Of a DNA stretch of 43,659 nt, positions 3,001 through 22,631 are shown piece after piece (the first letter of the stretch is position 1; every line of letters starts with the position of its first letter). The notes beneath the pieces are model-generated. The model was not told where the DNA came from. It made no database searches and was given only the letters and a program-made list of their open reading frames with translations. Location of the stretch: IMG/VR virus record IMGVR_UViG_3300028416_000028, positions 1 to 43,659 of that record. One strand, written 5' to 3'. Position numbers and translations under genes: made by a program. Source of the stretch: a virus.

Positions 3001-3185
3001 TTATCAGTCCCCATAACAGGGAAATCCACATCCTCCATTGTTATTGAACCTGACTCAATGATATTAACCGGATTGTTTATATCTTTACTATACCGCTTGT
3101 ACCCTTCTACAGATATGTACTGAGTTATGTCTTTTAAAAACTCATTTGGTCCACCAGGTAATCCTATGCTTTTTTTATTCTTCAT
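1..3185 (-). CDS. Virion lytic transglycosylase with LysM and zinc ribbon (partial, C-terminus outside window)
   Basis: This reading frame stays open from an ATG at 3185 to the window edge (at least 1061 codons), so its C-terminus is missing. Visible parts in order: an N-terminal region; a zinc-ribbon-like module C291-x2-C294-x15-C310-x2-C313 (MKCNSCGWSW then CHKCGG); a long low-similarity middle; a LysM peptidoglycan-binding domain at about residues 771-817 (GEYKVSSGDTFYGIA); and an SLT transglycosylase domain from about 840, with predicted catalytic Glu855 in AYVESNLNP followed by GYMGLGQI and SYNWGRGN. Such enzymes cut glycan strands during DNA entry. The start overlaps the stop of the tail muzzle gene as TAATG, suggesting translational coupling and a virion location, probably an ejected internal (cargo) protein. 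Short motifs AQDG and GG recur (VPMAQDG, PKAQDGRE, YQRGGG, FKEGGD, YQIGGQ, YKQGGE). The domain calls are strong; the cargo role is inferred. Confidence 0.88.
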   Translation of the reverse strand, partial: MKNKKSIGLPGGPNEFLKDITQYISVEGYKRYSKDINNPVNIIESGSITMEDVDFPVMGTDNLGNSQMMMPGNNYQFPGDSVLEVPMAQDGTEIPDEAEAAASNNSFLYDLEKLVNKSLGDINNKARDFSENPEEMNNIDNMRHASGGRYAAEAIQQKVKDIPYLGGLLDFVGVDKAAGFIGSNVMGVGHELRTIFGGDERPFLAKLQEMGEDTFNNYVGSIVGSLSIDDSEKDEVIKYLSYNNLLPDGYVRTEQGKKDGFSEDIYFKDEDGKRKTAYQRGGGLLDKTMKCNSCGWSWKAADGGADVSTCHKCGGSALPKAQDGRETYTREQAIARQEQLVEYANEYFGGDIKKTIEALNSGRGIAGDKSYPEDASILGTNYNKKIDSPRLEAPPNPLQIGNSYLAEGLNAITGRNDGFDFFRPLTENQITLSEAANVTNPYGAFALDMIDPALITSLGKGAIKELTKPLDKFISNRIVNNINPTDDYNNIGKKFKDVFFNKKSNTYRNTNSLDGNIRNQYLDQIFSETMGVKPKIKTEGYIKPSFGGNNVRSLSLDKGIKEDALKSKIGENYLLAKDAQKTFNKFKESAPKGLTEKELFDKFWKEQDSRDYYKIGSADGYPAAQTYDRAFNVMANNSGYLDNKGLYNEVDIWDLHPFRNNGGSKFLPNKIKELEVFSTLGKKPIKIHNKYKIDKIENFKSDFIKDLKDKYKAANPDASHWDIERNSTMLYYKLLEKHRGFIPDEYNIEQVFKEGGDIEYYQIGGQPTTQEGNGEYKVSSGDTFYGIANKNNVTWDELKKANPNIGYNNLKLNQSIVIPKKIDKPTDVIKRETVKESVQDFQITPQLLYKQAYVESNLNPKAKNSLGYMGLGQIGKSLINDYKKANKVDTVDPFDPKQNYDVQAWSMNELFNSSFINKPGSTMENRLLKSLASYNWGRGNVLNLLKAQKAKGSDIYNSTEWMQHLPKETKEYIQMIVYDGKPEKRPLVQENFLKTTTDEKYKDLRALYNYKQGGEPNLFNMYSGYINGDYDGTEFESKAALTYDKLNRVYYKEAKDAGMNV

Positions 3186-6100
3186 TATCTCTGTGATAGT
3201 AAAAGTTTAGTATTATTCAATCTTAATAACATCTTTCTAGATCCTGATACATTTCTACGTAAAATTAAGTTATTAGAATAATGTCTAAACTTCTTACGTT
3301 GAGTAGCATTCTTTTGATAGTTAAGATTAATTTCATTTAAAGGTCTTATGTAACCATTAGATTGAGTATTAAATATAGGTTGCTCTGCATTAGTAAATTC
3401 ACCTCTATCGTTTGTTATATCCCAAAACTGATTAAATCTAAATTTATGTTCAACTTTAGAAACTAGTATATCAATATTATTAAAATTAATAATTGGATAA
3501 TTTAAGTTTTTCCAAGGTTCATTTGCAGGTTGCTTATTAAGTAATAATAAACCTGATACCTGATCATTGTTATATATGATAGATTCATCAAAGTTAAAAT
3601 CTAAATCTTCCCATTTATCTCCACCACACATATTATATTGAGGATCTCCTTTATATACATAAGTCTCAAGTTGATATTCAAAGCTTCTTATTGTATTTAC
3701 TGATTGTCCTGTATTTGAAATTAAATCTATTTCCCAAGGATAATCATTACCATAATAATTTGCAAATGAGTCACATCTTACATTATGCCTCCATATACCA
3801 CCGTATGTAAAGTTAGCGGGAGTACTAATGTAAACAGAATAGCTACACCTACGTGGATCCGGTTGTACAAAATCTGGGTTACCTATTTGAAATATTAAAG
3901 GTGCAGTGTCAGGACATGTACCTGACTCTACAACTGGAATATTAGGTACTGTGGAAGTAGGACATTCACAAGTAACTCTTCTGCATATTGGTGGATTAAT
4001 GTCATCACAAGTACCTGAAGATAACGTATATGTTGAATTAATTAAATCAGGATAAACTAAAGTATAGCCTGTTGGACAGCTGCATGAATACACGTCATTG
4101 CATACACTATTAGAAATTGCATTTGCAGCTAATCCAAATGTTGGAGGAAAAGATGCGTTAATTCCAAATTGATAAGGATCAACATTTACTGGCCCTGGAG
4201 ATCTAGATATGTAATCTAATATGTTAGCATTAGGTGGATCAACACTAGTTGCACCACAAAACATTGCATATACAACTTGATAACTTGGACCAGTACCATC
4301 ACCAACTGAAGTATATGGTATACCAACAGCTGGATCTGGCTCTGCTATAGTATCAGTAACAAGTATTATTATAGACTTGTAATAAGGACTACTTGTTCTG
4401 TCACCCAATGTAGAATTAGCACCATCAGAAATTACTGTATTACCAATCTGTAATCCTAATGCTATATCAGTACTAGTACTATTAAGCCAATTATCATCAT
4501 AAAAATCTTTAACTTCTAATTCTGTTACAGTATTACTCATTGTAACTGCACCTGGATCCATATTAAATGTTACACTTGTACTACCCCAAGATACAAATCC
4601 AATTTGTAACTGATCAGCAGCCATTAAATTTACTATATTAGAATCATTTAAAAAGCTAGTTAACCAAGTCTGCTGTGCTTCCCTAACAGAACCTGGACCA
4701 GATCCCGTAGAAAAAGAAGTATCCATTGCCACTACAATGTCAATTAAACATGCATCTGGTCCTCCTGCAACTGTAGCTGCAATATCATCTATTGTTACTT
4801 CTGATAAACTTGTTTCGTTAACGTTTAACTCACATAAACCATTTGTAGAATTATAAGTATAACCAGTAGGACAATAAGGAGCATCTAAATCAGTATAACT
4901 ATTAGTTGTAAAGAAATGATTAATGCTTGGTAAAGCTAAACCAGGATGCCAATCATGAAAAGAAATCCAAGCTTTTGATTTAGGATCATAACTTACAGTC
5001 CATGAGCAATCATCAAAATATAAAGGATCACCAATGTCAACAGGAGTATATACATCTAATAATTTAATAGATACAGGCTTACTTAAACTGTCTGTAAATA
5101 TTGCATCAGCAATATATTCAGATTTTAATATATAATCTTTCTTCATGAAGTATACAATATCATCTACTGAATCATATATAACATGACAGCCAACACCATT
5201 TACTGGATTATCTGACCAAACAGAATGCTCAGCATCTGGAAATTGTTTAACAAACTTTGATGGTAAGTATTTTGCAAACCACCATTTCATTCCATTATTG
5301 GATATCGGATTCAAACCTTGACCAGCATATTGAAATATTTTTCCTTGCTGTTGTGATATAAAAAACAAACCTAATGGGGTATTTATAACACCTCTTAGAC
5401 TTTCACATGAACCATATTCATTTGATATATCTGCATTAGCTATATTTTGAAATGGTTGACTAAATAAACCACCATCACCAATTGTTAGCTTAGTATCTAA
5501 TTGTGTTTTTAATGTATCAAGTCCTTGAAACATTTGAGGTGATAGATAAGGAAAGAATATTATAGCACCACTTTTATTAATTGGCTTGATAACACTAACC
5601 TCATTTTTAAAATCTCTGTAATTAAAATTTAAAAACACTCTCCAATAATCTCTTTTAGATTCCTCTTGAGCTTGTAAAGAGTATATTAGTCTCTTAGGGT
5701 AATTTACAAAACAAGACTCTGCCGTGTAAGGATCATAGTCTAAAGGTTGTATCTCACCAAATGAAGATAATTGTGTAGGAAACTTGCTTGTACTTAATGA
5801 CTCATCGTACTTATAAAAGTTATCATCCTTTTCTATCTTAGCATGGAAAAGTTCATCTATATCATTATTGTCATATATACTATATATTTTCTTTTTGGGT
5901 TCATCTTCCCAATCTCTCTGATCTAAATTTATATCAGATTCAACAAAAAAGTCTAATATACCATTAACATGAGAATACATATATGCGTATCTCATAGAAA
6001 ACTTAGGATTAGGATCACCATTAGTACCAAAGATTGCACCTAAACCTGAACCACAACTATTTTCTCCTCTATCTAAATAAAATAAATCGTTAGGAAACTT

Positions 6101-9100
6101 AGCATCTAATTCACTAGAAGTTGCAAAAGTTAAAGTTGAAATTTCACTAGCCAAAACACTCATATCAAATTTTTGAGAGTTTAACCAAAATCTAGGATAA
6201 GGTATATTAACATGTTGAGAGTAATCATAAGTAAACTCATCAGGTTGTCCTAATAAATATTGTGCAAATATTGGCATTATAACTTTTTCAGTATATCTAG
6301 ATACAAAAGTATCACCAGAAAATATTGGATCACTAGTATATAAATATTCATCAGGTTTCGTATCATCTAAAAGCTGAACACAACCTCTCATTTGAACTTG
6401 CTTTATACCAGATAGCTGACCATATTGATTATCAAAATTAAATTTAAGAGCGCCATAATAAGCTGATATAGTTCTTTTTTGTTTAGTTGATGGGTCAGTT
6501 AAAAGATCATCACCATAATCATCTGTTATACCATTTGTATTAACATCTCCACCAATTGTAAATCTTGATGTATCAATTATAGATGGATCAGCAATATCTT
6601 TATTTAAAGAAACAGCAACAGTAGATGGTCTAAATAAATTATTGATTTTATATTTTCCGCTATCAAATGACTGAAATGATTGACCTAAGTAATTTGAATC
6701 TGTATTTTTAATTCTAAATAATCCCGTGTTATTTTTATCAAATGAATTAAAAAATCCATAAGAATTATACTTAAATACAAAATCAGATTTATTAACTAAG
6801 TTATAAATTAATTCTAATATCTCATCTCCACCTATTGCAATATTAGTTTTAGCCATTAAATTACCAACAATTAGTCTTACAAACGATGGTAATGATGACT
6901 CTGATGAATCATTAGATTGTGTAATAGTTGTTGTACCTCCTAATACACCAGGTAAAGCACCCAGTGCTGTTTGAGCTGAAGCAGTAAGAATATCTTGTGC
7001 CTGTGTTGCTGTACCACCTACATAAAGATCAGCTAAACCAATAAAATTATCAAGTAATTCGTCTAATACAAGTTGAGTTGCTGTCTGTGCTAGAAGAGCA
7101 GTTCCTACAACAGTAACATTGGATGCAAAGTTTGCACCAAAAGGACCGGTCGAAAGACCGCTACCAAAAAAACTAGACCAATCATTTAATTGATAATTAC
7201 CTTTAGCACCTTCTATAGTTTTGCTTCTTGTTCCTAATACTTTATGCATAGCATAACCAACACCAATAATAGAAGATACTATTGCAGCTCCATTTCTTAG
7301 TAATTTAAATTGAGGATGATCTTCTGATGCTTTAAAGTAACCACTAGAATTACCACTTACTTCTCCATAAATCCTTGTTTCATAAGCATTCAGAAATGGT
7401 TTAGTAAACATTAAATCAGGAGATGAAAAACTAAATACACTTTTAGAATATCCTGTTAAAGGTTTAAAGTTTGTTATTGATTGTGAATAAGTATCACAAC
7501 CCTCAGTTCTATGAATTGAATTAGCATTACCATCATGAAAATATACATCAGCTCTTAAATCATTATACGGATAATTAGGATATAAACCTTGTACATTTCC
7601 ACCAATTAAATTCTCACCATTAGGAATAGTATACTCACGCATATTTCTAAATATACCCTTTCCTAATATTGACTTTGCACCTAATCTAGAACCTCTAAGT
7701 ATTTCATATCCTACAACGTTAGGTATATAAGTTCCATCGTTAAACTTAGGTCTACCAATGTTTTTAAATTGAACACCTAATATGTTTATATTATCACCGC
7801 CTGTATTTGATAAATGAAGAGTTGGCCCTGTCTCTTCAGAAGGCATTTTGTGATGTCTAATTGGTTTTCCGCATAGGTCACCCCATATATCAGGTTCATT
7901 TGGATATCTTTCTGTTGATTCCCAATAACCCATTTTACCAGATGATGTTAATAAACTATCATCAGGAAGTACAGTATTTTCAAACAAATTTTCTACTGAA
8001 GCTGTGTTATATACTTTAAATAACGGATCACCATTTGGGCTTAATACATTATCACCATATATTATTTCGTCTTCACTATATTCTTCTCCTAGAGGTGTAG
8101 TAAACTGTTCCGGTGCTCTACCTGGAATATGATAAGAAGAAGATCTTTCACCTGTATTGTATATCCACCTTATAAAGAATGCATATTGCTCATCACGTAA
8201 AAAGTTAAATTTATTACCTCCTTTATAGTAATAAGTTGAGCTTAAAGAATTAGTTACCCAGTTTACTTTTATTTTATTTGCTATTGGTTGATAATTAAAA
8301 TCAAATTGCTCAACAGGACCTTGACGTATTAGCCAGTCATTAACAACAAACATTGATTCAGACTTTTCATAAGCAGGACTACGTAATGGTATTTCTACTA
8401 GATTAACAGAAGTTAAAGACTCATCTATAAAATCAATGTTTATATTTTTTTGTTGAACGCTGTATATACCTATCTTCTTAGCTGAAGTTTGACCTTGGTT
8501 TCTTCTTAATATTACAAGTTCATAGTATTCATATTCCTTATCTAAATTACTAACTTCAATATCTAAAGATCCACTTGTACCAAGATGACTCCATATGGTT
8601 TGTATATTTGAAACACCTATGTAATCAGTAACTTTTTGTTCATTTTCTACATATGCTATAAAAGCTTGATAAGCTCCATTAGCAATTATACCTGAGTCAA
8701 CTGATTTAGATAGTACAATACATGGCGTATCTACCAATGGAGCAAGTCTAATCTTTTCACAGTTTAAACTTCTTGGTACTACATCTTCATATTCTACACA
8801 ATCAGAGCCGTTAATTTCAGGACCAGATACTTGAAATTGATTCCATGGTACATTATCAATATTTAAAGTACGAGATGGATTATTAGCATCATCCCAGTAT
8901 ACCTGCCATGTACAATCAAAGTTTTCTTTTGCTGCTCCGGTTATTAAAAACTTTCTATTAAAGTTTAAGCACTTGTCATTTACAATAGTTTCATACTTGC
9001 ATTGACTATCATCAAACCTTCCTATCTCAGAATTAATATCATCTGTAGAATATATTACCCATTCATCAGCATATCTATGTATAGCTCCAATTACAGTATA

Positions 9101-9316
9101 TGGAATAACACCACACTGCAAGTTAGATGGTTCATTACCTATCATACCTAGATCACCATCTTCTGAGTTATTTACTGCATTACGAGCATGCCACCAAGAT
9201 TGAGGCCCTTCAAATGAAGGTGCAACATCTTTATTCATACCTTTAGTAAAACCATTTGTGTTTACTGAAGATGATCCTTGTGGTTGTGTATTTTTAGAAG
9301 ATCTACTTTTAGCCAT
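3185..9316 (-). CDS. Tail muzzle/stabilisation protein (P22 gp10-like, crAss-like type) with inserted VWA domain
   Basis: This 2043-residue protein is the largest in the window. Its position just after two ring/adaptor-type genes, its N-terminus (NTNGFTKGMNKDVAPSFEG, then the WWHARNAVNN region) and its conserved C-terminus (FRFNQFWDITNDRGEF, then QRKKFRHY, LILRRNVSGSRK, MLLRLNNTK) match, as I recall them, the large stabilisation or muzzle proteins closing the distal tail of crAss-like podoviruses. Between the conserved segments WISFHDWHPG (about residue 1460) and GGIWRHNVRCDSF (about 1838) lies an apparent insertion. It contains CPTGYTYNSTNGLC, a VWA domain (MIDAS D1532-T-S-F-S, then STSTDIALGL and SIIILVTDT) and further Cys-rich CSCPTGYT segments. 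A hydrophobic Gly/Ala-rich stretch occurs near residues 700-820. It probably acts at the tail tip in host contact and channel closure. The start ATG is at 9316. Confidence 0.8.
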   Translation of the reverse strand: MAKSRSSKNTQPQGSSSVNTNGFTKGMNKDVAPSFEGPQSWWHARNAVNNSEDGDLGMIGNEPSNLQCGVIPYTVIGAIHRYADEWVIYSTDDINSEIGRFDDSQCKYETIVNDKCLNFNRKFLITGAAKENFDCTWQVYWDDANNPSRTLNIDNVPWNQFQVSGPEINGSDCVEYEDVVPRSLNCEKIRLAPLVDTPCIVLSKSVDSGIIANGAYQAFIAYVENEQKVTDYIGVSNIQTIWSHLGTSGSLDIEVSNLDKEYEYYELVILRRNQGQTSAKKIGIYSVQQKNINIDFIDESLTSVNLVEIPLRSPAYEKSESMFVVNDWLIRQGPVEQFDFNYQPIANKIKVNWVTNSLSSTYYYKGGNKFNFLRDEQYAFFIRWIYNTGERSSSYHIPGRAPEQFTTPLGEEYSEDEIIYGDNVLSPNGDPLFKVYNTASVENLFENTVLPDDSLLTSSGKMGYWESTERYPNEPDIWGDLCGKPIRHHKMPSEETGPTLHLSNTGGDNINILGVQFKNIGRPKFNDGTYIPNVVGYEILRGSRLGAKSILGKGIFRNMREYTIPNGENLIGGNVQGLYPNYPYNDLRADVYFHDGNANSIHRTEGCDTYSQSITNFKPLTGYSKSVFSFSSPDLMFTKPFLNAYETRIYGEVSGNSSGYFKASEDHPQFKLLRNGAAIVSSIIGVGYAMHKVLGTRSKTIEGAKGNYQLNDWSSFFGSGLSTGPFGANFASNVTVVGTALLAQTATQLVLDELLDNFIGLADLYVGGTATQAQDILTASAQTALGALPGVLGGTTTITQSNDSSESSLPSFVRLIVGNLMAKTNIAIGGDEILELIYNLVNKSDFVFKYNSYGFFNSFDKNNTGLFRIKNTDSNYLGQSFQSFDSGKYKINNLFRPSTVAVSLNKDIADPSIIDTSRFTIGGDVNTNGITDDYGDDLLTDPSTKQKRTISAYYGALKFNFDNQYGQLSGIKQVQMRGCVQLLDDTKPDEYLYTSDPIFSGDTFVSRYTEKVIMPIFAQYLLGQPDEFTYDYSQHVNIPYPRFWLNSQKFDMSVLASEISTLTFATSSELDAKFPNDLFYLDRGENSCGSGLGAIFGTNGDPNPKFSMRYAYMYSHVNGILDFFVESDINLDQRDWEDEPKKKIYSIYDNNDIDELFHAKIEKDDNFYKYDESLSTSKFPTQLSSFGEIQPLDYDPYTAESCFVNYPKRLIYSLQAQEESKRDYWRVFLNFNYRDFKNEVSVIKPINKSGAIIFFPYLSPQMFQGLDTLKTQLDTKLTIGDGGLFSQPFQNIANADISNEYGSCESLRGVINTPLGLFFISQQQGKIFQYAGQGLNPISNNGMKWWFAKYLPSKFVKQFPDAEHSVWSDNPVNGVGCHVIYDSVDDIVYFMKKDYILKSEYIADAIFTDSLSKPVSIKLLDVYTPVDIGDPLYFDDCSWTVSYDPKSKAWISFHDWHPGLALPSINHFFTTNSYTDLDAPYCPTGYTYNSTNGLCELNVNETSLSEVTIDDIAATVAGGPDACLIDIVVAMDTSFSTGSGPGSVREAQQTWLTSFLNDSNIVNLMAADQLQIGFVSWGSTSVTFNMDPGAVTMSNTVTELEVKDFYDDNWLNSTSTDIALGLQIGNTVISDGANSTLGDRTSSPYYKSIIILVTDTIAEPDPAVGIPYTSVGDGTGPSYQVVYAMFCGATSVDPPNANILDYISRSPGPVNVDPYQFGINASFPPTFGLAANAISNSVCNDVYSCSCPTGYTLVYPDLINSTYTLSSGTCDDINPPICRRVTCECPTSTVPNIPVVESGTCPDTAPLIFQIGNPDFVQPDPRRCSYSVYISTPANFTYGGIWRHNVRCDSFANYYGNDYPWEIDLISNTGQSVNTIRSFEYQLETYVYKGDPQYNMCGGDKWEDLDFNFDESIIYNNDQVSGLLLLNKQPANEPWKNLNYPIINFNNIDILVSKVEHKFRFNQFWDITNDRGEFTNAEQPIFNTQSNGYIRPLNEINLNYQKNATQRKKFRHYSNNLILRRNVSGSRKMLLRLNNTKLLLSQR

Positions 9317-13507: not shown

Positions 13508-15718
13508 TTAACAAGTTCCTGTTATTACACTACTTATTGTTGTAGGTAAGTAAGAAGTAGTAGTAGCACCACCTGTTTGCTGAGCTAATTCTATCCAAGG
13601 TTGAATGTAAACACCATTTATAGTTGCACCTAAAGTTGATCCCGCTCCACATATAACATACTTAATTCCGTTAGTATTTGCATAAGCTATCATATTCTGA
13701 ATACCAGCCCATGTTGCAGCGTTAAAACTATCTGATATACCTCCTGGTAATTGATCTGTAATAATAACTACATATTTAGCTGCATTAGCTCTAAACGCAC
13801 CTGGAACAGAACCGCCTGCTACAGCTAATTGAGCCGCATAGTCTGTTGGTTCAGCTACTCCATTACCATCTCCAATGTTTATACATGTAGTATCTACTCC
13901 ACCATTTAATAAGTTTAATGCTGTTGTAAAACTTGATGAGTTATTATTTTGGAATATTTCCCAGAAGGTAGTATATATATAATTATTATTTGTTCCTAAT
14001 AAAGATAACCTTTGATTTAAAGGTAAATCAGTATAGTCTATACAACTTCCATAATCTGGTGTAACTACATTAGATTCATCTGCAGTAACTAATGCTAATC
14101 TATAATCATTAGAACCAGAAGAAGTTACTATACCTGCAACTAATCCAGGAATATCATTTTGAATTGTTGTAATCTCACCACTCATACTTTGAGTGTAATC
14201 AAGTACAAATACTACATCCATACCATTTGTACAAGGTAAAGCGTTACTTACTGTTTGAAAGGCAACAGTATTTGTACATACTTTTGTTACTCCACCAATT
14301 GCTACAGTAAGTCTGGCTATATAATTTGTATTAGGACTTAATCCTGTAAATGAATGAGATGGTGAAGCACCAGGTGAATTAATTACAAATGTATCTACAA
14401 CAGTAGATCCATCTAGTATATCTATTGTATATACAGCAGTTATACCCAATACGTTAGTAAAGTTTACTGTTACACCTGTTGTTGTTATTCCAGTTAATAG
14501 CATTGTAGGACATGTTATTAAACCATTTACAACACTGCTTTGTATTGATTCACATGTATCTATAGTATCAGTTACTGAAAAGTCTACTGTAATGCTAATG
14601 TTTTGGAAAGTATTTAAAGTTCCAGTACTAACTGTTAAACCAGAACCTGAGTTCTGTAAGTTAGCTACGCTAAATGTTGTAGTTACAGAACTTCCATCAG
14701 CATCTGTTAACGTTATAATTGAATGATTTGTAGTATCTAAATAACCTGATGGTATTACAGAATTTGTAAAGTCAAAAAGTATACCATCTATAATACCTGA
14801 TGAATTAATAACACCAGATGACAAATAATTAAATATAACAGAATCACATCCTGTAGGACAACAAGTTGATTGTATGCTTGATATTGATGTATATAAATCA
14901 TCTATAACAACCCAAGCATTCTGGACTGATTGTGCTAGTGTAGTAGGTGTATTATTCCATCCTGCTATTCCACTATATGTTACATTTGATGATGTTAATG
15001 TTGCATAAGAACCAGTAATAACTGATTGTGATATTGCATTATTAATTAAACTAGGTGTTCCTACAGCAGTTTGTAAAGCACAAAATGCAATTTCTAAAGC
15101 AGATACAACAACAGATACATTTGTTAGCTGACCAACATTACTAACGCAAGTTGGTATAATCTGCACTTCACTTGAAGTTCCTACAGCACATACTCCTCCT
15201 GGAAATACACAAGCTTCAATAGTATTTAGTCTAGTATTAATTGTAACTATTGAACCTTCAATAGCTATAATCCTTTCAAGATTACTACATACTTTTTGTG
15301 CAGTTAATATAGCATACTGTTCTAAATAAACTTGAGTAACAGGATTACCGTTTGAATCAGTATATTGTAAGCAAGTTGGTAATGTAAGAAGATCTGCTGC
15401 AGTAGGAACTGGAGTTCCTGTTGTAGTTGAATTATTACATATCTGAACTATCATTGCCTGAAGAACAGGAACTAGTTCAGTTGGTGTTACACCTCTAATG
15501 TTTAAACATGTTAAGTCCAGGCCTGTTAGGCTTGGATTTGCGGAAACACCATTTGTTATTAAACTACAAACTTCAGTTGCTAATTTAAATACTACCTCAG
15601 AGATTGTATCACCGTTACATAAATCTATACAAGAAATATCAGGGCCTTGCCATATTACACAATTAGAAGATATATTATCACATCCATTTGTGGTGGCACT
15701 TGAATTTGTTGGAATCAT
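13508..15718 (-). CDS. FnIII- and VWA-domain adhesin/tail fibre protein (736 aa)
   Basis: The N-terminus contains Cys-anchored helical modules (ISCIDLCNGDTISEVVFKLA; then CLNIRGVTPTEL; CLQYTDSNGN; CVSNVGQLTN) that look like repeated oligomerising segments of a fibre. Residues about 405-490 form an FnIII-like domain (GITTTGVTVNFTN; HSFTGLSPNTNYIARL). Residues about 500-715 form a VWA domain: MDVVFVLDYTQSM carries a MIDAS-like D507-x-T-x-S, followed by EPTDYAAQLAVAG and KYVVIITDQLPGG. The first MIDAS Ser is replaced by Thr, so metal binding may be weaker than in the muzzle's VWA domain. VWA domains bind protein or glycan ligands through a divalent metal. The gene is the first of a two-gene unit following a terminator at about 15.8 kb. 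Surface adhesion is the likely role. Confidence 0.75.
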   Translation of the reverse strand: MIPTNSSATTNGCDNISSNCVIWQGPDISCIDLCNGDTISEVVFKLATEVCSLITNGVSANPSLTGLDLTCLNIRGVTPTELVPVLQAMIVQICNNSTTTGTPVPTAADLLTLPTCLQYTDSNGNPVTQVYLEQYAILTAQKVCSNLERIIAIEGSIVTINTRLNTIEACVFPGGVCAVGTSSEVQIIPTCVSNVGQLTNVSVVVSALEIAFCALQTAVGTPSLINNAISQSVITGSYATLTSSNVTYSGIAGWNNTPTTLAQSVQNAWVVIDDLYTSISSIQSTCCPTGCDSVIFNYLSSGVINSSGIIDGILFDFTNSVIPSGYLDTTNHSIITLTDADGSSVTTTFSVANLQNSGSGLTVSTGTLNTFQNISITVDFSVTDTIDTCESIQSSVVNGLITCPTMLLTGITTTGVTVNFTNVLGITAVYTIDILDGSTVVDTFVINSPGASPSHSFTGLSPNTNYIARLTVAIGGVTKVCTNTVAFQTVSNALPCTNGMDVVFVLDYTQSMSGEITTIQNDIPGLVAGIVTSSGSNDYRLALVTADESNVVTPDYGSCIDYTDLPLNQRLSLLGTNNNYIYTTFWEIFQNNNSSSFTTALNLLNGGVDTTCINIGDGNGVAEPTDYAAQLAVAGGSVPGAFRANAAKYVVIITDQLPGGISDSFNAATWAGIQNMIAYANTNGIKYVICGAGSTLGATINGVYIQPWIELAQQTGGATTTSYLPTTISSVITGTC

Positions 15719-15848: not shown

Positions 15849-16109
15849 TTAAACCTTTTCTAAAGAAGCTTCTTCCTTTAATGGAGATATTACACCATCT
15901 TCTAAGCTAATATTTACAGAACCATACTTGTCTTCTAGTAATTTGCTAATAGCAGACCAATCTTTTTGTAACTCCGCATGTTTAGAAACAAGTTGATTTT
16001 TAACTAGTTCAGCATTACCAATATTCATAAGTAATGTGTTAATGTTATTTTGAAGTTCTTTAACTTCAGCTAATTCTTTAGCTGTAATTTTTTTAGCTTT
16101 TTTTGACAT
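15849..16109 (-). CDS. Small coiled-coil protein of fibre locus (86 aa)
   Basis: This is a mostly helical protein: a basic start (MSKKAKKITAKEL), then a heptad-like stretch from about residue 12 to 65 (ELQNNINTLLMNIGNAELVK and KDWSAISKLLEDKYGS), ending in an acidic tail (VNISLEDGVISPL). Small coiled-coil proteins of this style (IGN/LE-K-L pattern, then EDKYGSVNISLEDG) recur in fibre regions of marine phages. It is the last gene before a probable terminator, following the DUF285 protein. It may be a fibre assembly chaperone or coiled-coil connector; function is not established. Confidence 0.6.
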   Translation of the reverse strand: MSKKAKKITAKELAEVKELQNNINTLLMNIGNAELVKNQLVSKHAELQKDWSAISKLLEDKYGSVNISLEDGVISPLKEEASLEKV

Positions 16110-16157
16110 GTTATGTTGATTTTAATTAATAGTAATGTAAATATAATAAATTTTTAC

Positions 16158-17207
16158 TTAAACTCCACCATCGTCAGTAAAAGTCCAACTATTAGCCAAT
16201 AGCGCAGTTCTTGCTGCTCCGCTTGTTGCTGTAGTATATGTGGATGGAATATCTCCTATTGCCCTACCAGTTAATGAATAAGTAACTCTGTCTGAATTTA
16301 ACTTGTTTAAAAATCCATTGTAGTTAGCTGTAGATAATCCACTCTGATATAACATATTATTGTAGTTTGTAGCAGAACTAAAGTTCCATGAACTCATATC
16401 TGGATCAGCAAGACTTGCTCTATAAAACATTTGTTTAAAATTAGTAACATTGCTAGTATCCCACCCACTTGTGTCAGGATTTGCTGCAGTTCTTGATGTA
16501 CTGTTAGTATAGAACATATAAGACATATTTGTCACATTACTTGTGTCCCATCCACTTGTGTCAGGATTTGCGGCATAAGCATACGTAAACATCCAATGCA
16601 TTCTTGTCACATTACTTGTGTCCCATCCACTTGTGTCAGGATTTGCGTTGGTAGCATTATAAAACATGTTATTCATATACACTGCACTACTAGTATCCCA
16701 CCCACTTGTGTCAGGTGTTGCGTTAACAGCACTAAAAAACATCCTACTAAAATCAGTAACATTACTAGTATCTAATAAACTTACATCTACATTACCGGTT
16801 TGATTAGAAAAACACTGATACAAACTAGTGGTAGTACTTTCTAAGTTTCCCGCAACAGATAATAAAGTGGAGCAATAGTTTAACTTTGCAGATGTTGCTC
16901 CAGTTATTCCCCAATCTAAAATCCTTATCAACTTCGATACTGATCCTGCAGTAGTGCTGCTCCATTTTATACTACTTGCAGTTCCATAATATTTAATGAC
17001 ATAATCACCAGCACTTGCAAAAGTATGAGATGCATAATTTGCACTCCCAATTATATCAGAAGTACCATCATCAAATACTAGCTTACCGCTAGTGTCACTT
17101 GTGTTAATAGGTAAATATACAGTTGTGTTAGCTGCTGTAGTCCTAAACTCCATCTTTAAAGAAGTATCTACTGGTGGTGTAAGTATATGTGGGTTAACTA
17201 TATTCAT
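16158..17207 (-). CDS. BspA-like (DUF285) repeat surface protein, candidate receptor-binding protein
   Basis: Residues about 120-290 hold tandem DUF285/BspA-like repeats of about 25 residues, of the type NPDTSGWDTSNVTxMxxMF (DTSNVTDFSRMF; DTSSAVYMNNMF; DTSNVTRMHWMF; DTSNVTNMSYMF; DTSNVTNFKQMF). In bacteria these repeats occur in surface proteins that bind host or matrix ligands; here they suggest a phage adhesin or tip protein. The N-terminus (MNIVNPHILTPPVDTSLKME) is a beta-rich domain with an AGDYVIKYYG strand. The gene directly abuts the 190-residue gene upstream of it (17208) and precedes the small coiled-coil protein. Two repeat units share a 44-nt exact DNA repeat, so repeat number could change by recombination. 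Confidence 0.8.
   Translation of the reverse strand: MNIVNPHILTPPVDTSLKMEFRTTAANTTVYLPINTSDTSGKLVFDDGTSDIIGSANYASHTFASAGDYVIKYYGTASSIKWSSTTAGSVSKLIRILDWGITGATSAKLNYCSTLLSVAGNLESTTTSLYQCFSNQTGNVDVSLLDTSNVTDFSRMFFSAVNATPDTSGWDTSSAVYMNNMFYNATNANPDTSGWDTSNVTRMHWMFTYAYAANPDTSGWDTSNVTNMSYMFYTNSTSRTAANPDTSGWDTSNVTNFKQMFYRASLADPDMSSWNFSSATNYNNMLYQSGLSTANYNGFLNKLNSDRVTYSLTGRAIGDIPSTYTTATSGAARTALLANSWTFTDDGGV
16529..16647. repeat. 44-nt exact direct repeat, 75-nt period, within DUF285 gene
   Basis: Positions 16529-16572 and 16604-16647 are identical over 44 nt, 75 nt (25 codons) apart, so gain or loss of a unit keeps the frame. Less perfect copies of the same unit flank them (around 16450-16490 and 16690-16715). 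Confidence 0.9.
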
Positions 17208-17780
17208 TTAATAATTAATATTTATATAATCAGACACTTTATCCTTTATCCAATTAAATAAAACTAACGCAGTTTGATCTGTTGGTTCTTGCAACTGATC
17301 TAATTTAGTACCAACAATTCTCCATACTCCTCTATAAAGTGGTTCTATACTAGAATACATTAGCTCTGTTAAATTGTCAATGTCATCTTCTGAAATACTA
17401 TTACTTGCACGTTCGGTCTCTACCTTAACAAAAAACTCATCAAATAATTGTATACCATCTTCTTTATACATCTCTTGCATTACGGTATACGGGCTAGGTA
17501 AGCTATAACTCTCTATTTCTTCTGGAGTCATTTCTACTGCTACTGATTCTATAACATATTGATTTAAGTGCGCATACTCTTTGTGAGGTATATCTGTTAT
17601 CTGTTCTGGTAGTTGAACTAATTTATGTGTAGCAGAGTCGTAAGTAGGTTTTGGTTTATTTACAACTAATAACCATTCTAGGTCTGCGTCTAAACCTACA
17701 ACTGGATTTATGTATAAGTTAGGATACTGATCTTTTTTTATCAATTCCTGTGTTGACTTCCTTATTAATACTGCCTTCAT
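17208..17780 (-). CDS. Fibre-associated protein of unknown function (190 aa)
   Basis: No diagnostic motif was seen. The N-terminal half is mixed beta (MKAVLIRKSTQELIKKDQYP; LEWLLVVNKPKPTYD), the C-terminal half helical (MTPEEIESYSLPSPYTVM; IEPLYRGVWRIVGTKLDQL; ALVLFNWIKDKVSDY). Its place between the 1615-residue fibre (3-nt gap) and the DUF285 protein (start and stop directly adjacent) resembles fibre-attachment or fibre-assembly genes that sit downstream of long fibres in marine phages. Co-translation with both neighbours is likely. Confidence 0.6.
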   Translation of the reverse strand: MKAVLIRKSTQELIKKDQYPNLYINPVVGLDADLEWLLVVNKPKPTYDSATHKLVQLPEQITDIPHKEYAHLNQYVIESVAVEMTPEEIESYSLPSPYTVMQEMYKEDGIQLFDEFFVKVETERASNSISEDDIDNLTELMYSSIEPLYRGVWRIVGTKLDQLQEPTDQTALVLFNWIKDKVSDYININY

Positions 17781-17783
17781 AAT

Positions 17784-20700
17784 TTATGCCCTTGTACCTA
17801 TTAAATAAACTTTTAATCCTGTTCCTGCCACAGTTGATCCTACTTGGTCAATATTAACTATAATTTCTACATCGTCATTTAATGCTGTTGTAGTTATATT
17901 AGGTGGTGTAGCTGCTGTGGTACTTGTCTTTTCTCCAGCATCAATAGATAATAAGTTTGTAGTAAAAATAGATGATCCACCTTGCTCAATGTCTACAATT
18001 ATTGTACTCCCTGTTGGTGGGGTTGTTACACTTGCTCTAACATCAGTTATTGTCATTGCATACGGCATTCTAAATACTAATTTACCTTGACCTACTGTTA
18101 AGTCTGAAGTTTCATCACTTATAGCAAATGATATTGTAGATGCAGGGTCACCTTCTATTAACTGCCCAGTACTATCAAAGAATGCACTCTTAGTAGCAGC
18201 TGCACCTGTTCTATCCGTTACTGTTAGACTTCCATTAATTTTCAAAACCTCACTATCAAACTCTCCATATATTAGAGGATTATCTCTGTACATTCCAATA
18301 GCTAACCTGTAATCCGCTGCACCTTGTGATCCTACAGAGTATCCTTGCTCAAACCCTAGTAGTATAGTATTGTCAAGTGATACTGTTGCTGCGTATCCGT
18401 TCCGATAACCTACTAACATAGAATAATTAATAGTATCTGTAGTAGTGTATGCATTACTCTGTCCTGACACTAGAGAGTACTGTACTTGATTAGCATTCAA
18501 TGCATTATCTTTCCCAAATACAGAAGAGTATCTTATAAAGTTAGCCTCTTTAGCATTATCACCACCTGACAAAATACTATATTGTATATCGTCTCCATTC
18601 TCTGCGTTTTGTCTACCAAATAGTGCGGATTCTTTAATAGTAGACGCAACATTCGTAGCATTCCCATAACCTGACATTATAGTGTAAGTAATACTACTAG
18701 AATTATATCCGTTATCTCTACCAAATAAAGTAGTGTAATCTAAGTTGCCTGCATCGAATGCATTCCTGAATCCAAACAAACTACAATAGTCTACATCTGT
18801 AGCGTTATATGCGTTTTGATATCCCATAACACTATTATAAACTATAGCATTATCTACGTGATACAAATTTCCATAACCTATTATATTGTTTTGATTTAAT
18901 GCATTAGTATTATCGTAGCAGTTCCTCCACCCTATCAGAGTACATGAACCCACGCTTGATGCATTGTATCCATTTTCTCTACCTAAAAGAGTTGCGTTGT
19001 TAGCTACAAGTGCAGCAGTATATCCATTTTCTCTACCTATTATAACGTTGTCCGTTATAGCACCTATAGAGCTATATAGATTATTATACCCTGCCATAAA
19101 GTTGTAAGATGTTGCACCTGTATTAGAGTACATATTTCCATAGCCAAAGAAAGTATTATAGGAACTACTAGACACTGACTTTGCGTTATCCTGTCCTGAT
19201 ACAGTACTGCGATTTATTGATGTTGCTAGGGTTAAGTTTCCCTGACCTACGATGAAGTTTTCCACTCCTGTTGTTATAGATCCTGCATTGCTTACACCCA
19301 TAACTACGTTATTCAATCCACTGTCTACAGGATACTCTCCTGTATAAACTCCATTTACTGACAATGTACTAGATGGACTTGTAGTTCCTATACCTACATT
19401 CCCACTAGAGTCTATACGCATTCTTTCTAAGTTTCCATTACCATGGAAAGACATATAATTTGTCTGGTGTACATATCTAATTTGACCCTGAAAAGCATTA
19501 CTAGCACTTCCAAATGCAATTGCATTAGTTGCAGTAGTTCCTCCAATTTCTAGTCTAAGAAAAGCATTATCTGTAGCTGTTGTACCTGTAGACTTTACTC
19601 TGATAGAAGTACTGGTAGTATCTTGTACATCAAGACGCTGATCAGGAATTGTAATTCCTATTCCAACGTCACCATCGTCTGTTATTCTTAATCTCTCTAT
19701 TGCCCCACCTATTGCGTTATAAGCAGCTGTACCAAATGTCAAAGCACCACTAGGTAATGTACCACTATCGTTTTCGTTTACACTTTTTATAAATGATGTT
19801 ACATAAGGCGCATTTCCTCCTGGATCAGATGAGTAATATTCTATACTTCCAACAACATCGTCAACATCCCAATCAGCAGAATCAGTTGTGTTGTTAATTC
19901 TAAATGTTGGTGAATCTAGTGCCGCATCTCCACCTGAATTACCTGAGGCAATCTCTAAAAGAGTACTAGGACTCGTAGTTCCTATCCCTACGTATGCAGT
20001 GTCTCTAGTTAAAGTTATAATATCTCTAACAGTAGTTGTACTTGCTGACTGAAAATTTAGTGTATTATTAACTCCCTGAAGATTAATTCTAAATCCGTAA
20101 ATGCTACTACCCCAAGAAGTACCTGATTCAGCAAAATATAAATTTCCTGCGTCTGTTGGATTAGTGCCGTTTGCATTTGTAATAGTAATATCACCTTTTA
20201 CATTTAACTCAGTAGTTGGACTTGTAGTCCCTATACCTACACGATTATTAACATTATCAAATCTAACATTAACCCCATTAGTTACACTGCCAATTTGAAA
20301 ACTTCTACTAGCATCACCTTCTAAGTAATTTACACCTGATGTGTTATACCATTTACCTATAGCTGTTTCATTTGAGTTACCTAACTTGAAACCAAAGCCT
20401 GCCTTAGCATTAATAGCACCAACTACTTCAAGCTTATCATTTGGAGTAACTATTCCAATACCAACATTACCATATGCGGTAATACGCATCTTTTCAGTCT
20501 CTGCTGTCCCAGCCTTAGTATTAAATCCTACTCCGTACAAAGTTCCAGCACTTTCAGCAACAGTCCTTATAGAAGCTGCTACACCCACACCACCAGTACT
20601 AGCATCATTAGATTTAAATTCTATTTTAGCTAAGTCTTCTGTGTCTAATATACTAGTGTCTGTATTCTCTATTATTAAGTTTGTTGCAGTACTGTTAACT

Positions 20701-22631
20701 CCTTGTGATATATGTAATAATGAATCAGGAGAAGTAGTTCCTATCCCTACATTACCTGTGGTGTATACTGCATCGTTAGTGTCTGTACCATCTACAAACT
20801 TACCTCCGCCAGTAACATACGGGTCAATAAGACTAGCTAACTGTACTGCATCTACATACTTAACATTTTCAGCGTCAGAAACTAAAAACTTATCTGCTGA
20901 ATATGTTGTCGCTTCATTTACTGTAGAAACCCTTAGCCCACCATTAACATGAAGTGTGGCAGTAGGATTCGTAATTCCAATACCAACAAAACCATTATCA
21001 TCAATCTGCATTGCTAGGGTTGAAGTACCTGACGTCCCAGTATAAAAATCAATAGCCTTGTAATTATTTTTAATATTTAAAGCACCTGAATTTCCAGCCG
21101 TCAATCCAATTTCTGCATGTACATCATTGATTTGATCAGTGAATTCTATTTTTACAGCATTTGGATCGTTTGAATTTGTATCCTGCAATGTTAATACAGG
21201 GTTTCCACTTGCAATATGCAACTCGCTATTAGGACTTGTAGTTCCTATTCCTACGTTACCTGATGAATCAATACGCATTCTTTCAGTACCCCCATCTTCA
21301 AAAACTAAACTATCGTTTTTATATCCGATAGCCTTTTCTATATCTGTTCTAAAACCACCACCTGCTGCTGAACTTTGAGATCCACTGAATTTAATATATG
21401 CCTCTGTAGTTGAAAGAGATGTGTCAGTATCTTGAACGAAAATAATTGGATTTGCTTTTTCAACATGTAGTATATTTTCAGGACTTGCATTCCCTATACC
21501 TACGTTGCCATCCCCATCAATACGCATTCGTTCAGTATTACCCTCACCAAACGTAATCAGATCATCATTCATAGATCCAAACTGCATATACCCCATTAAG
21601 GTAGTATCTATCTTTCTCTGTATTCTTTGTGCTGCATGAGTCCAATCTGTTCCTGTGGTTAATCTCTCGGATGTAAATTGTAAAGTATCAGTGTTATTAT
21701 TTGTAGTTTTTAAACTAAGCAAAGCTACCTCATCTCCTGCAGTGCCTCCTAATATTCCACCATCTACATATAATTTAGCTATGGGATTTGTACTCCCTAT
21801 ACCCACGTCTCCATTAGAGTCTATCCGTACTTGTTCAGCTCCTGCTGTATATAAACGCATAGCATCAACACTATGTGTATATTTAATCTGTCCTCTAGTA
21901 CTTGATGAAGAATCCCCAAAGGCAACAATGCTAGATGCAGTAGTTCCCCCAACTCTTATTCTAACTAAGGCATCATCTGAAGATCCTGTACCTGAAGAAC
22001 GTACTCTAATAGAAGGATCAGTAACAGCTTGTACATCAAGAAGATAACCAGGGGTAGTAGTTCCTATTCCTACATACCCATCATTTTGAATTCTCATCTT
22101 CTCACTACCACCAACGCCAATTCTAATAGGGTTTCCTTCCCCTTCATATAAAAGAACATCACCAGACCTAGCGGATATATCAAAGTCAGCACCAGTAGTG
22201 TCAGTAAGGCGTAATCCAGCAGTATCTGTATTCTGAATCTGTAACCCTTTACCACCATAGGATAATAAAGGACTTGTTGTCCCTATACCTACGTTGCCTG
22301 ATGAATTAATACGCATATGTTCACTTTCACTAGCGGAGTCTGAATTAGTAAAGAATCCTAAAGCATTCGCATTTCCAAAAGCAGATTCATTTATTGATTT
22401 AATAGCTGCCCCTACAGCAGGATAATTACCTGAAGTGTCTGAGTTATAAAACTCAATAGAAGAAACAACGTCTCCTATTGTAGAAGTGGAAGATTCATTT
22501 GTTAGTCTCAGCACAGGAAAGGTGTCAGAAACTTCCAACCTAGAATTTGGACTTGTAGTTCCAATACCCACGTTACCTGTTACCGTAAGCTCTCCATCAA
22601 TAGACTGACTGTTTAAAAATCTAATTGCCAT
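17784..22631 (-). CDS. Long tail fibre with VGIGTTSP repeats (1615 aa)
   Basis: The N-terminus MAIRFLNSQSIDGELTVTG resembles that of the other long fibre (MAVRYLTGLNVSGN), suggesting a shared attachment segment. Residues about 20-1140 contain thirteen VGIG-type turns (NVGIGTTSP, DVGIGSTNP, FVGIGITNP and similar) spaced about 60-130 residues apart, each usually preceded by ERMRIDSSG-like strands; this is typical of trimeric beta-helical fibres. Residues about 1150-1440 form about eleven repeats of roughly 25 residues (LFGRENGYNAS, LIGWRNCYDN, VMGYQNAYNAT, LFGFRNAFDAG) that resemble YadA-head-like stacked turns. The last 110 residues (KLVFRMPYAMTITDVRAS; AGEKTSTTAATPP; VGSTVAGTGLKVYLIG) are a small beta domain found at many fibre ends. 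No S74 peptidase-type chaperone was recognised. It is a likely host-recognition fibre. Confidence 0.88.
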   Translation of the reverse strand: MAIRFLNSQSIDGELTVTGNVGIGTTSPNSRLEVSDTFPVLRLTNESSTSTIGDVVSSIEFYNSDTSGNYPAVGAAIKSINESAFGNANALGFFTNSDSASESEHMRINSSGNVGIGTTSPLLSYGGKGLQIQNTDTAGLRLTDTTGADFDISARSGDVLLYEGEGNPIRIGVGGSEKMRIQNDGYVGIGTTTPGYLLDVQAVTDPSIRVRSSGTGSSDDALVRIRVGGTTASSIVAFGDSSSSTRGQIKYTHSVDAMRLYTAGAEQVRIDSNGDVGIGSTNPIAKLYVDGGILGGTAGDEVALLSLKTTNNNTDTLQFTSERLTTGTDWTHAAQRIQRKIDTTLMGYMQFGSMNDDLITFGEGNTERMRIDGDGNVGIGNASPENILHVEKANPIIFVQDTDTSLSTTEAYIKFSGSQSSAAGGGFRTDIEKAIGYKNDSLVFEDGGTERMRIDSSGNVGIGTTSPNSELHIASGNPVLTLQDTNSNDPNAVKIEFTDQINDVHAEIGLTAGNSGALNIKNNYKAIDFYTGTSGTSTLAMQIDDNGFVGIGITNPTATLHVNGGLRVSTVNEATTYSADKFLVSDAENVKYVDAVQLASLIDPYVTGGGKFVDGTDTNDAVYTTGNVGIGTTSPDSLLHISQGVNSTATNLIIENTDTSILDTEDLAKIEFKSNDASTGGVGVAASIRTVAESAGTLYGVGFNTKAGTAETEKMRITAYGNVGIGIVTPNDKLEVVGAINAKAGFGFKLGNSNETAIGKWYNTSGVNYLEGDASRSFQIGSVTNGVNVRFDNVNNRVGIGTTSPTTELNVKGDITITNANGTNPTDAGNLYFAESGTSWGSSIYGFRINLQGVNNTLNFQSASTTTVRDIITLTRDTAYVGIGTTSPSTLLEIASGNSGGDAALDSPTFRINNTTDSADWDVDDVVGSIEYYSSDPGGNAPYVTSFIKSVNENDSGTLPSGALTFGTAAYNAIGGAIERLRITDDGDVGIGITIPDQRLDVQDTTSTSIRVKSTGTTATDNAFLRLEIGGTTATNAIAFGSASNAFQGQIRYVHQTNYMSFHGNGNLERMRIDSSGNVGIGTTSPSSTLSVNGVYTGEYPVDSGLNNVVMGVSNAGSITTGVENFIVGQGNLTLATSINRSTVSGQDNAKSVSSSSYNTFFGYGNMYSNTGATSYNFMAGYNNLYSSIGAITDNVIIGRENGYTAALVANNATLLGRENGYNASSVGSCTLIGWRNCYDNTNALNQNNIIGYGNLYHVDNAIVYNSVMGYQNAYNATDVDYCSLFGFRNAFDAGNLDYTTLFGRDNGYNSSSITYTIMSGYGNATNVASTIKESALFGRQNAENGDDIQYSILSGGDNAKEANFIRYSSVFGKDNALNANQVQYSLVSGQSNAYTTTDTINYSMLVGYRNGYAATVSLDNTILLGFEQGYSVGSQGAADYRLAIGMYRDNPLIYGEFDSEVLKINGSLTVTDRTGAAATKSAFFDSTGQLIEGDPASTISFAISDETSDLTVGQGKLVFRMPYAMTITDVRASVTTPPTGSTIIVDIEQGGSSIFTTNLLSIDAGEKTSTTAATPPNITTTALNDDVEIIVNIDQVGSTVAGTGLKVYLIGTRA

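Follow-up and report, generated by a model that had tools for sequence, protein, structure and literature searches.

Several described phage systems resemble the locus studied here in part. In the T-even gp37/gp38-type arrangement, as set out for S16 gp38 in the available part of the source (PMC9608196), the host-binding part is a separate protein that is encoded after the fibre and located at the fibre end, where it attaches via N-terminal helices and presents a glycine-rich binding domain. A chaperone-sized gene adjoins the fibre in the gp24/gp25 pair of Pam3 (PMC9608196) and in the gp26/gp27 pair of the Alteromonas phage V22 (PMC7289586), and Pam3 gp24 has a TNF-like (jelly-roll type) domain as well (PMC9608196). 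The trimeric long tail fibre of Agrobacterium phage 7-7-1 (PDB 9rkv) ends in a C-terminal domain that its authors term a triple jelly roll (PMC12796354). PARCEL/DUF285 proteins carry tandem 25-residue repeats that are variable in number, with a sporadic and horizontal distribution (PMC2996958), and the BACON repeats in the tail proteins of crAss-like phages are tandem domains within a region common to otherwise dissimilar lineages (PMC6949934).

The stretch of viral DNA analysed here (the window) is 43,659 nt long. Its tail fibre is followed by two further genes which, together with the end of the fibre, form the cassette described below:

17784-22631, minus strand: tail fibre of 1615 aa, mosaic with its relatives by sequence comparison
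17787-18128, minus strand: C114, the C-terminal jelly-roll domain of the fibre and proposed socket (182 relatives; pLDDT 94.8; Z 8.4)
17208-17780, minus strand: p190, a putative assembly chaperone of 190 aa (76% identical in a distant phage)
16158-17207, minus strand: DUF285 protein of 349 aa, probable fibre-tip adhesin (PF03382, E 4.6e-39; TIGR02167, 47.4 bits)
17187-17207, minus strand: N-terminal leader MNIVNPH of the DUF285 protein, proposed docking peptide (a pattern common to tip-position genes)
16158-18128, minus strand: exchanged cassette of C114, p190 and DUF285 (absent from the relative G006, present in the distant phage)
15849-16109, minus strand: conserved gene of 86 aa (98.8% identical in G006, in which homology resumes from 16150)

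The DUF285 gene contains a pair of exact 44-nt repeats, and we consider it fairly probable that this pair is a homogenised patch in a leader-docked tip adhesin, the adhesin being the distal part of an exchangeable C114/p190/DUF285 cassette.

The major capsid protein of the window phage is 23-29% identical to those of Cellulophaga phi4:1, csAssE-Sib and Leptolyngbya phage Lbo-JY46, among others, and its portal and large terminase match PHROG families. The phage is a candidate member of the crAss-like/phi4:1-like group. The terminase (36439-38628, minus strand) has at least 594 confirmed relatives in viral contigs and the phage group is therefore abundant. Two other large proteins were noted in the window. 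The 736-aa protein at 13508-15718 (minus strand) gives weak fn3 and VWA-like matches that are below the Pfam cut-offs, and by eye the 2043-aa protein at 3185-9316 shows a similar VWA-like stretch close to its end.

The DUF285 protein was found to match PF03382 with 133.3 bits (cut-off 25, E 4.6e-39) and TIGR02167 with 47.4 bits (cut-off 30), and these two matches, together with the tandem 25-residue repeats, make it a member of the DUF285/PARCEL group at the protein level. Its structure model, with a middling mean pLDDT of 65.8, is beta-rich in its N-terminal and partly helical in its C-terminal part, with the repeat array in between. Block means within the array range from 71 to 91 with a strand about every 25 residues, while residues 1-16, which include the leader, are without structure at low confidence (pLDDT 29 at residues 1-10). 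Neither the PDB sequence search at E 0.01 nor Foldseek of the model against the PDB at E <=0.001 returned a match. The VIA list for the model is headed by LRR chains (Z 10.2, rmsd 4.2, 217 aligned), a Z level that according to the tool's own note is common for repeats. As this repeat protein sits in a tail-fibre cassette, a role in receptor or host binding is predicted and appears likely, and the protein is probably positioned at the tip of the tail fibre.

The presence of the cassette does not follow the relatedness of the phage cores. In G006 the core proteins are mostly 97-100% identical to those of the window, with the exceptions located at or beside the fibre, plus an ORF cut off at the contig end. 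The G006 fibre is patchily like that of the window and ends in a Peptidase_S74 domain (PF13884, 33.7 bits, cut-off 22); neither p190 nor a DUF285 gene was found in G006, and the nucleotide homology restarts at window position 16150, just past the DUF285 stop. The distant phage, on the other hand, is barely related to the window in its core (TerL 27% identical over 154 aa; MCP 20% over 412 aa) and yet it keeps the order C114, p190 and DUF285 with identities of 73, 76 and 68%, respectively, and has fibre stretches with 88-95% nucleotide identity to the window. A cassette that is 68-76% identical despite such cores indicates that the segment 16158-18128 has moved between phages of this kind.

Other core relatives (G010, G012, G020 and G023) have other genes at the cassette site, and the parts of these four, of G006 and of G028 that were read did not contain C114. 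PF03382 was found in four of the 34 records searched: in one record of the window phage, in both records of the distant phage and in G028, in which the DUF285 protein is located elsewhere and is without the leader. The 34 records were those of the distant phage plus 32 of the 80 TerL loci, for the most part on longer contigs. When viral contigs were searched with p190 or the DUF285 protein, four contigs were obtained in total. The relatives thus differ by the swap of the whole tip and by block changes of repeat number, with the cassette exchange being by far the larger change. Further variation was noted. The fibre itself (17784-22631, minus strand) is a mosaic in which stretches shared with G006 and with the distant phage at 88-95% nucleotide identity occur at shuffled positions. 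G023 has another fibre end at the same place, a 1167-aa protein with collagen triple-helix repeats (L130:9790-13293), and G006 has a 151-aa ORF between two conserved genes that matches none of the window proteins (L128:5761-6216).

A total of 182 relatives of C114 were confirmed in viral contigs, and 80 of these loci were kept for analysis. In the kept loci the ORF stops within 0-18 nt of the end of C114. Neither Pfam nor NCBIfam gave a match for this domain, and its two weak PHROG matches both have no assigned function in PHROG. The model is all-beta with a mean pLDDT of 94.8; the structure alignment (A5) comprises 41 sequences. The best solved match is to residues 482-582 of the phage 7-7-1 long fibre, with 97 residues aligned at an rmsd of 2.3 and a Z of 8.4, which by the tool's own note is only just above the background for unmatched folds, and this match hits the same place in a fibre. 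Foldseek of C114 against the PDB gave no match at E <=0.001 and the PDB sequence search gave only two, at E ~0.6. The viral structure library yielded 32 matches at E <=0.001, several of them annotated as collagen-repeat or tail fibre proteins. Judged from these models, the C114 fold resembles a C-terminal trimer domain of a fibre.

The gene after C114 usually opens with a short leader of the form M..[IVL]NP[YHF]xF. The strict form, [ILV]NP[YHFW], was found at 58 of 76 C114 loci, in the initial 45 aa of one of the two ORFs that follow, and in 3 of 432 other ORFs, including that of L142, which itself occupies the tip position. A relaxed form was found at 67 of the 76 loci and in 1 of 118 ORFs in third or fourth place, the pattern having been recognised on this same set of loci. 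The remaining 4 of the 80 loci were omitted as they have no called downstream ORF of 50 aa, and three of them show the start of a leader in the bases that remain. At nine of the 76 loci neither of the two called ORFs that follow showed even the relaxed leader; L142 and L163 have it in another reading. Of five named phages with C114 that were compared, three have the strict leader, one has a variant and one (Carli) neither, and the six bacterial or archaeal contigs with C114 show the strict leader in four cases, a variant in one and none in one. Synechococcus phage S-CRM01 is a cultured phage that has the pair (g23/g24). In a Runella defluvii contig (L340), C114 is followed by a protein with a signal-peptide-like start and then by ILGNPFVF, a possible variant of the leader.

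A scan that used only the leader (MIINPYxF, which differs from the MNIVNPH of the window) and did not use C114 gave at least 120 places. Among the matches listed, C114 lies no more than 2 kb upstream of 109 of the 120 places and downstream of none, and with the five places that overlap the first set removed it is upstream in 104 of 115; the C114 profile applied here drew on 47 of the 80 loci, and many of the places are closely related, their C114 stretches falling into 37, 14 and 6 clusters at 90, 80 and 70% identity, respectively (n=107 of 109, stretches of at least 80 aa). The gap between C114 and the leader is 20 nt or less in 103 of these 109, again among the matches listed. Eleven of the 120 places are without C114; three of them (L238, L290 and L304) are within 300 nt of an end of the stretch, and four (L219, L292, L277 and L305) appear by eye to be unrelated proteins. 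The pairing was not found in the open-access literature with search terms that do not name the motif, which is weak evidence that it is undescribed. From this linkage in gene order and sequence we infer that the fibre end may form a socket which takes plug-in tip proteins and that the leader would make the contact with C114.

The proteins behind the leader are diverse. With the leader removed, 170 bodies fell into 17 clusters by blastp with single linkage, two of them with 119 and 23 members and the other fifteen with four or fewer, and given this method the clusters may still be distant relatives of each other. Pfam matches were obtained for Laminin_G_3 in L141, L148 and L156 and for Gly_rich_2 in L139, and six of the ten bodies scanned were without a match. 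In the five named phages the gene after C114 is annotated as hypothetical, with one noted as 'Fibrobacter succinogenes major domain', or, in one of the five (L345), as D-alanyl-D-alanine carboxypeptidase. By eye, the bodies of L224 and L289 resemble SGNH-type esterases, and together with L345 they look enzymatic. The closest parallel to the window is L156, in which C114 is followed by a p190-like protein and then by the leader with Laminin_G_3.

Proteins like p190 occur at 25 of the 80 C114 loci. No Pfam, PHROG or NCBIfam match was found for p190 and no known chaperone was matched. Its only two PDB matches (E ~0.07), both macrolide phosphotransferases, were taken as chance. We regard p190 as a putative chaperone that probably helps folding.

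The repeats of interest are located in the array of the DUF285 protein:

16326-16787, minus strand: six-unit DUF285 array (unit 1 at 16713-16787, unit 6 at about 16326-16400; from unit starts and codons)
16604-16647, minus strand: 44-nt exact repeat in the unit 2/3 region, identical to 16529-16572
16529-16572, minus strand: 44-nt exact repeat in the unit 3/4 region, identical to 16604-16647

The original prediction had described two identical 44-nt blocks at a spacing of 75 nt, or 25 codons, in the repeat region of a DUF285 protein, a candidate receptor-binding protein. The repeats and their place in a DUF285 array were confirmed, as the copies agree base for base over exactly 44 nt, stop sharply at both ends, are in frame and lie within the array of the 349-aa PF03382 protein of the tail-fibre cassette. 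They form the longest exact direct repeat of the whole window and, among the matches listed, every exact repeat of 20 nt or more is inside the DUF285 gene. The first five of the six units have 25, 25, 25, 29 and 25 aa and the sixth is diverged; the frame residues are strongly conserved between units, which vary at the positions in between. Each 44-nt copy spans the final three codons of one unit and the initial eleven of the next and covers ANPDTSGWDTSNVT. Exact inverted words of at least 10 nt are absent from the coding DNA of the array (shuffle mean 2.7), which disfavours dyad symmetry as the origin of the repeat as far as exact words are concerned; the dyad test in the PARCEL paper allowed imperfect symmetry (MEME).

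No variant in copy number at the 44-nt pair was observed in any of the three assembled records of the same phage (the window, L002 and L003), a comparison in which rare variants can be hidden by the assemblies. L002 and L003 do not differ from the window at any of the 1050 nt of the DUF285 gene, with 2-4 differences over 12-13 kb. The homologue in the distant phage (L006 and L007, both with 15 units and 1 nt different in the gene) has 584 aa and 15 units as compared with six in the window. In the MAFFT alignment the nine extra units fall between window units 1 and 2, away from the 44-nt pair, and the last five units align, including the odd unit of 29 aa in the window and 28 aa in the distant phage. 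This alignment pairs window units 3 and 4 with distant-phage units 12 and 13, which already differ, so that the distinction between units 3 and 4 appears to predate the split of the two genes. Ungapped nucleotide identity supports this for unit 4 (best with 13) and is less clear for unit 3 (a tie between 11 and 12), with unit 5 being best with 11; the in-register pairing is therefore clear for some units only. Duplication of a whole unit as the source of the 44-nt identity is disfavoured by the pairing of units 3 and 4 with 12 and 13. The number of repeats thus changes block-wise between lineages and not visibly via the 44-nt pair, and we found no evidence of fast switching.

How the identity arose was weighed against several other explanations. 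That the gene encodes an ordinary repeat protein whose 44-nt identity is leftover DUF285 homology under protein constraint would agree with the conserved frame residues and with the array of the distant phage, where the longest exact repeat is 26 nt, a length reached by 86 of 300 shuffles (28.7%) and hence ordinary for its codons. The window pair behaves differently. When synonymous codons were shuffled within the array, the longest exact repeat had a mean of 14 nt and a maximum of 35, and none of the 1000 shuffles reached 44 nt, which protein constraint does not account for. The 14 residues of ANPDTSGWDTSNVT are also present a third time, at aa 242, with other synonymous codons that the pair does not use, and the probability that all codons are identical given the same 14 aa is ~10^-4.3 with the codon use of this window. 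We consider this explanation quite unlikely, and the excess over the shuffle expectation is best read as recent local copying. An active site of slippage or recombination that gains and loses 25-codon units and so varies binding within a population, as had been proposed originally, is suggested by a pair that is exact, in frame, 75 nt spaced and identical beyond codon constraint, and by unit numbers that differ between lineages. The geometry would indeed permit gain or loss of 25 codons without a frameshift and lineages do differ in unit number (six against fifteen), but variation at the 44-nt site itself was not borne out. The gene is identical in all three same-phage records, the nine-unit difference falls elsewhere in the array, and the distant-phage array has no unusual exact repeat, which together make this proposal improbable. 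It is hardly credible that a diversity-generating retroelement varies the array, although units that hold their frame and differ in between might be expected of a diversified binding face, since RVT_1 was found in none of six records searched (possibly fragments), the differences are block-wise and the same-phage records are identical. The pair is most likely a homogenised patch in the putative binding solenoid, the trace of local copying by gene conversion or unequal exchange.

The docking role of the leader was weighed in the same way. The stop of the fibre and the start of the tip gene nearly overlap in many loci, as they might if the leader marked something else, for example translation coupling to the preceding gene or a folding or export signal shared by tip genes. 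Among the matches listed, however, the 109 leaders have 51 DNA spellings, so that it is the peptide which is conserved, and the leader is kept even where C114 and the tip gene are separated by p190 (the window, the distant phage, L156 and L336). Such a non-docking role is unlikely in our assessment.

Under the preferred reading of a docked and exchangeable tip, the C114 jelly roll would close the fibre, p190 would probably aid folding, and a separate tip protein would dock via its short N-terminal leader with the INP motif and display a binding body, here the DUF285 repeats. Host recognition would then shift mainly by replacement of the cassette or of the body that the leader carries; block expansion and contraction of the array would change it more slowly, with the 44-nt pair as a trace of local copying, gene conversion or unequal exchange. 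Whether this socket and plug is widespread, such that C114 holds any protein that opens with INP[YHF] as its leader and tip proteins can be identified in metagenomes from the leader alone, has in our estimate about an even chance. If so, unrelated lectins, LRR-like DUF285 solenoids and enzymes would be exchangeable between unrelated phages via one gene, and a short motif with a recognisable fibre domain would mark the host-binding protein, whatever its fold, in many uncultured phages. Both the prediction of receptor-binding genes and tip swapping would become directly testable. A natural case already exists in two phages that are near-identical elsewhere, one with a chaperone-ended fibre and the other with the DUF285 tip cassette, and in a phage barely related in its core, which has this cassette too, there are 15 units as against 6.

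The locus differs from each of the described systems. The BACON repeats are another domain, and the available excerpt of their description (PMC6949934) contains no leader or socket. Unlike the PARCEL proteins as described in the excerpt of PMC2996958, the window protein is in a phage fibre cassette and has an INP leader, and its coding DNA lacks exact inverted words of at least 10 nt. As compared with Tfa-like pairs, to the extent that the available parts of their sources describe them, p190 has no detectable known family or PDB chain and the tip body here is a separate gene. The long fibre of phage 7-7-1 gives the best fold match to C114 (PMC12796354, in the part available), whereas its identity to C114 is 10% and its next gene is without a leader. 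The T-even gp37/gp38 type shares with the window, the distant phage and the C114 loci a tip protein encoded as a separate gene after the fibre, as seen from gene order. The glycine-rich binding domain was not found in the window, where the tip is DUF285 without a glycine-rich Pfam match, although the L139 tip matches Gly_rich_2. Unlike S16 gp38, as far as the available part of its description goes, the system proposed here combines a short INP leader and a jelly-roll fibre end with many unrelated bodies, of which DUF285 is the one in the window.
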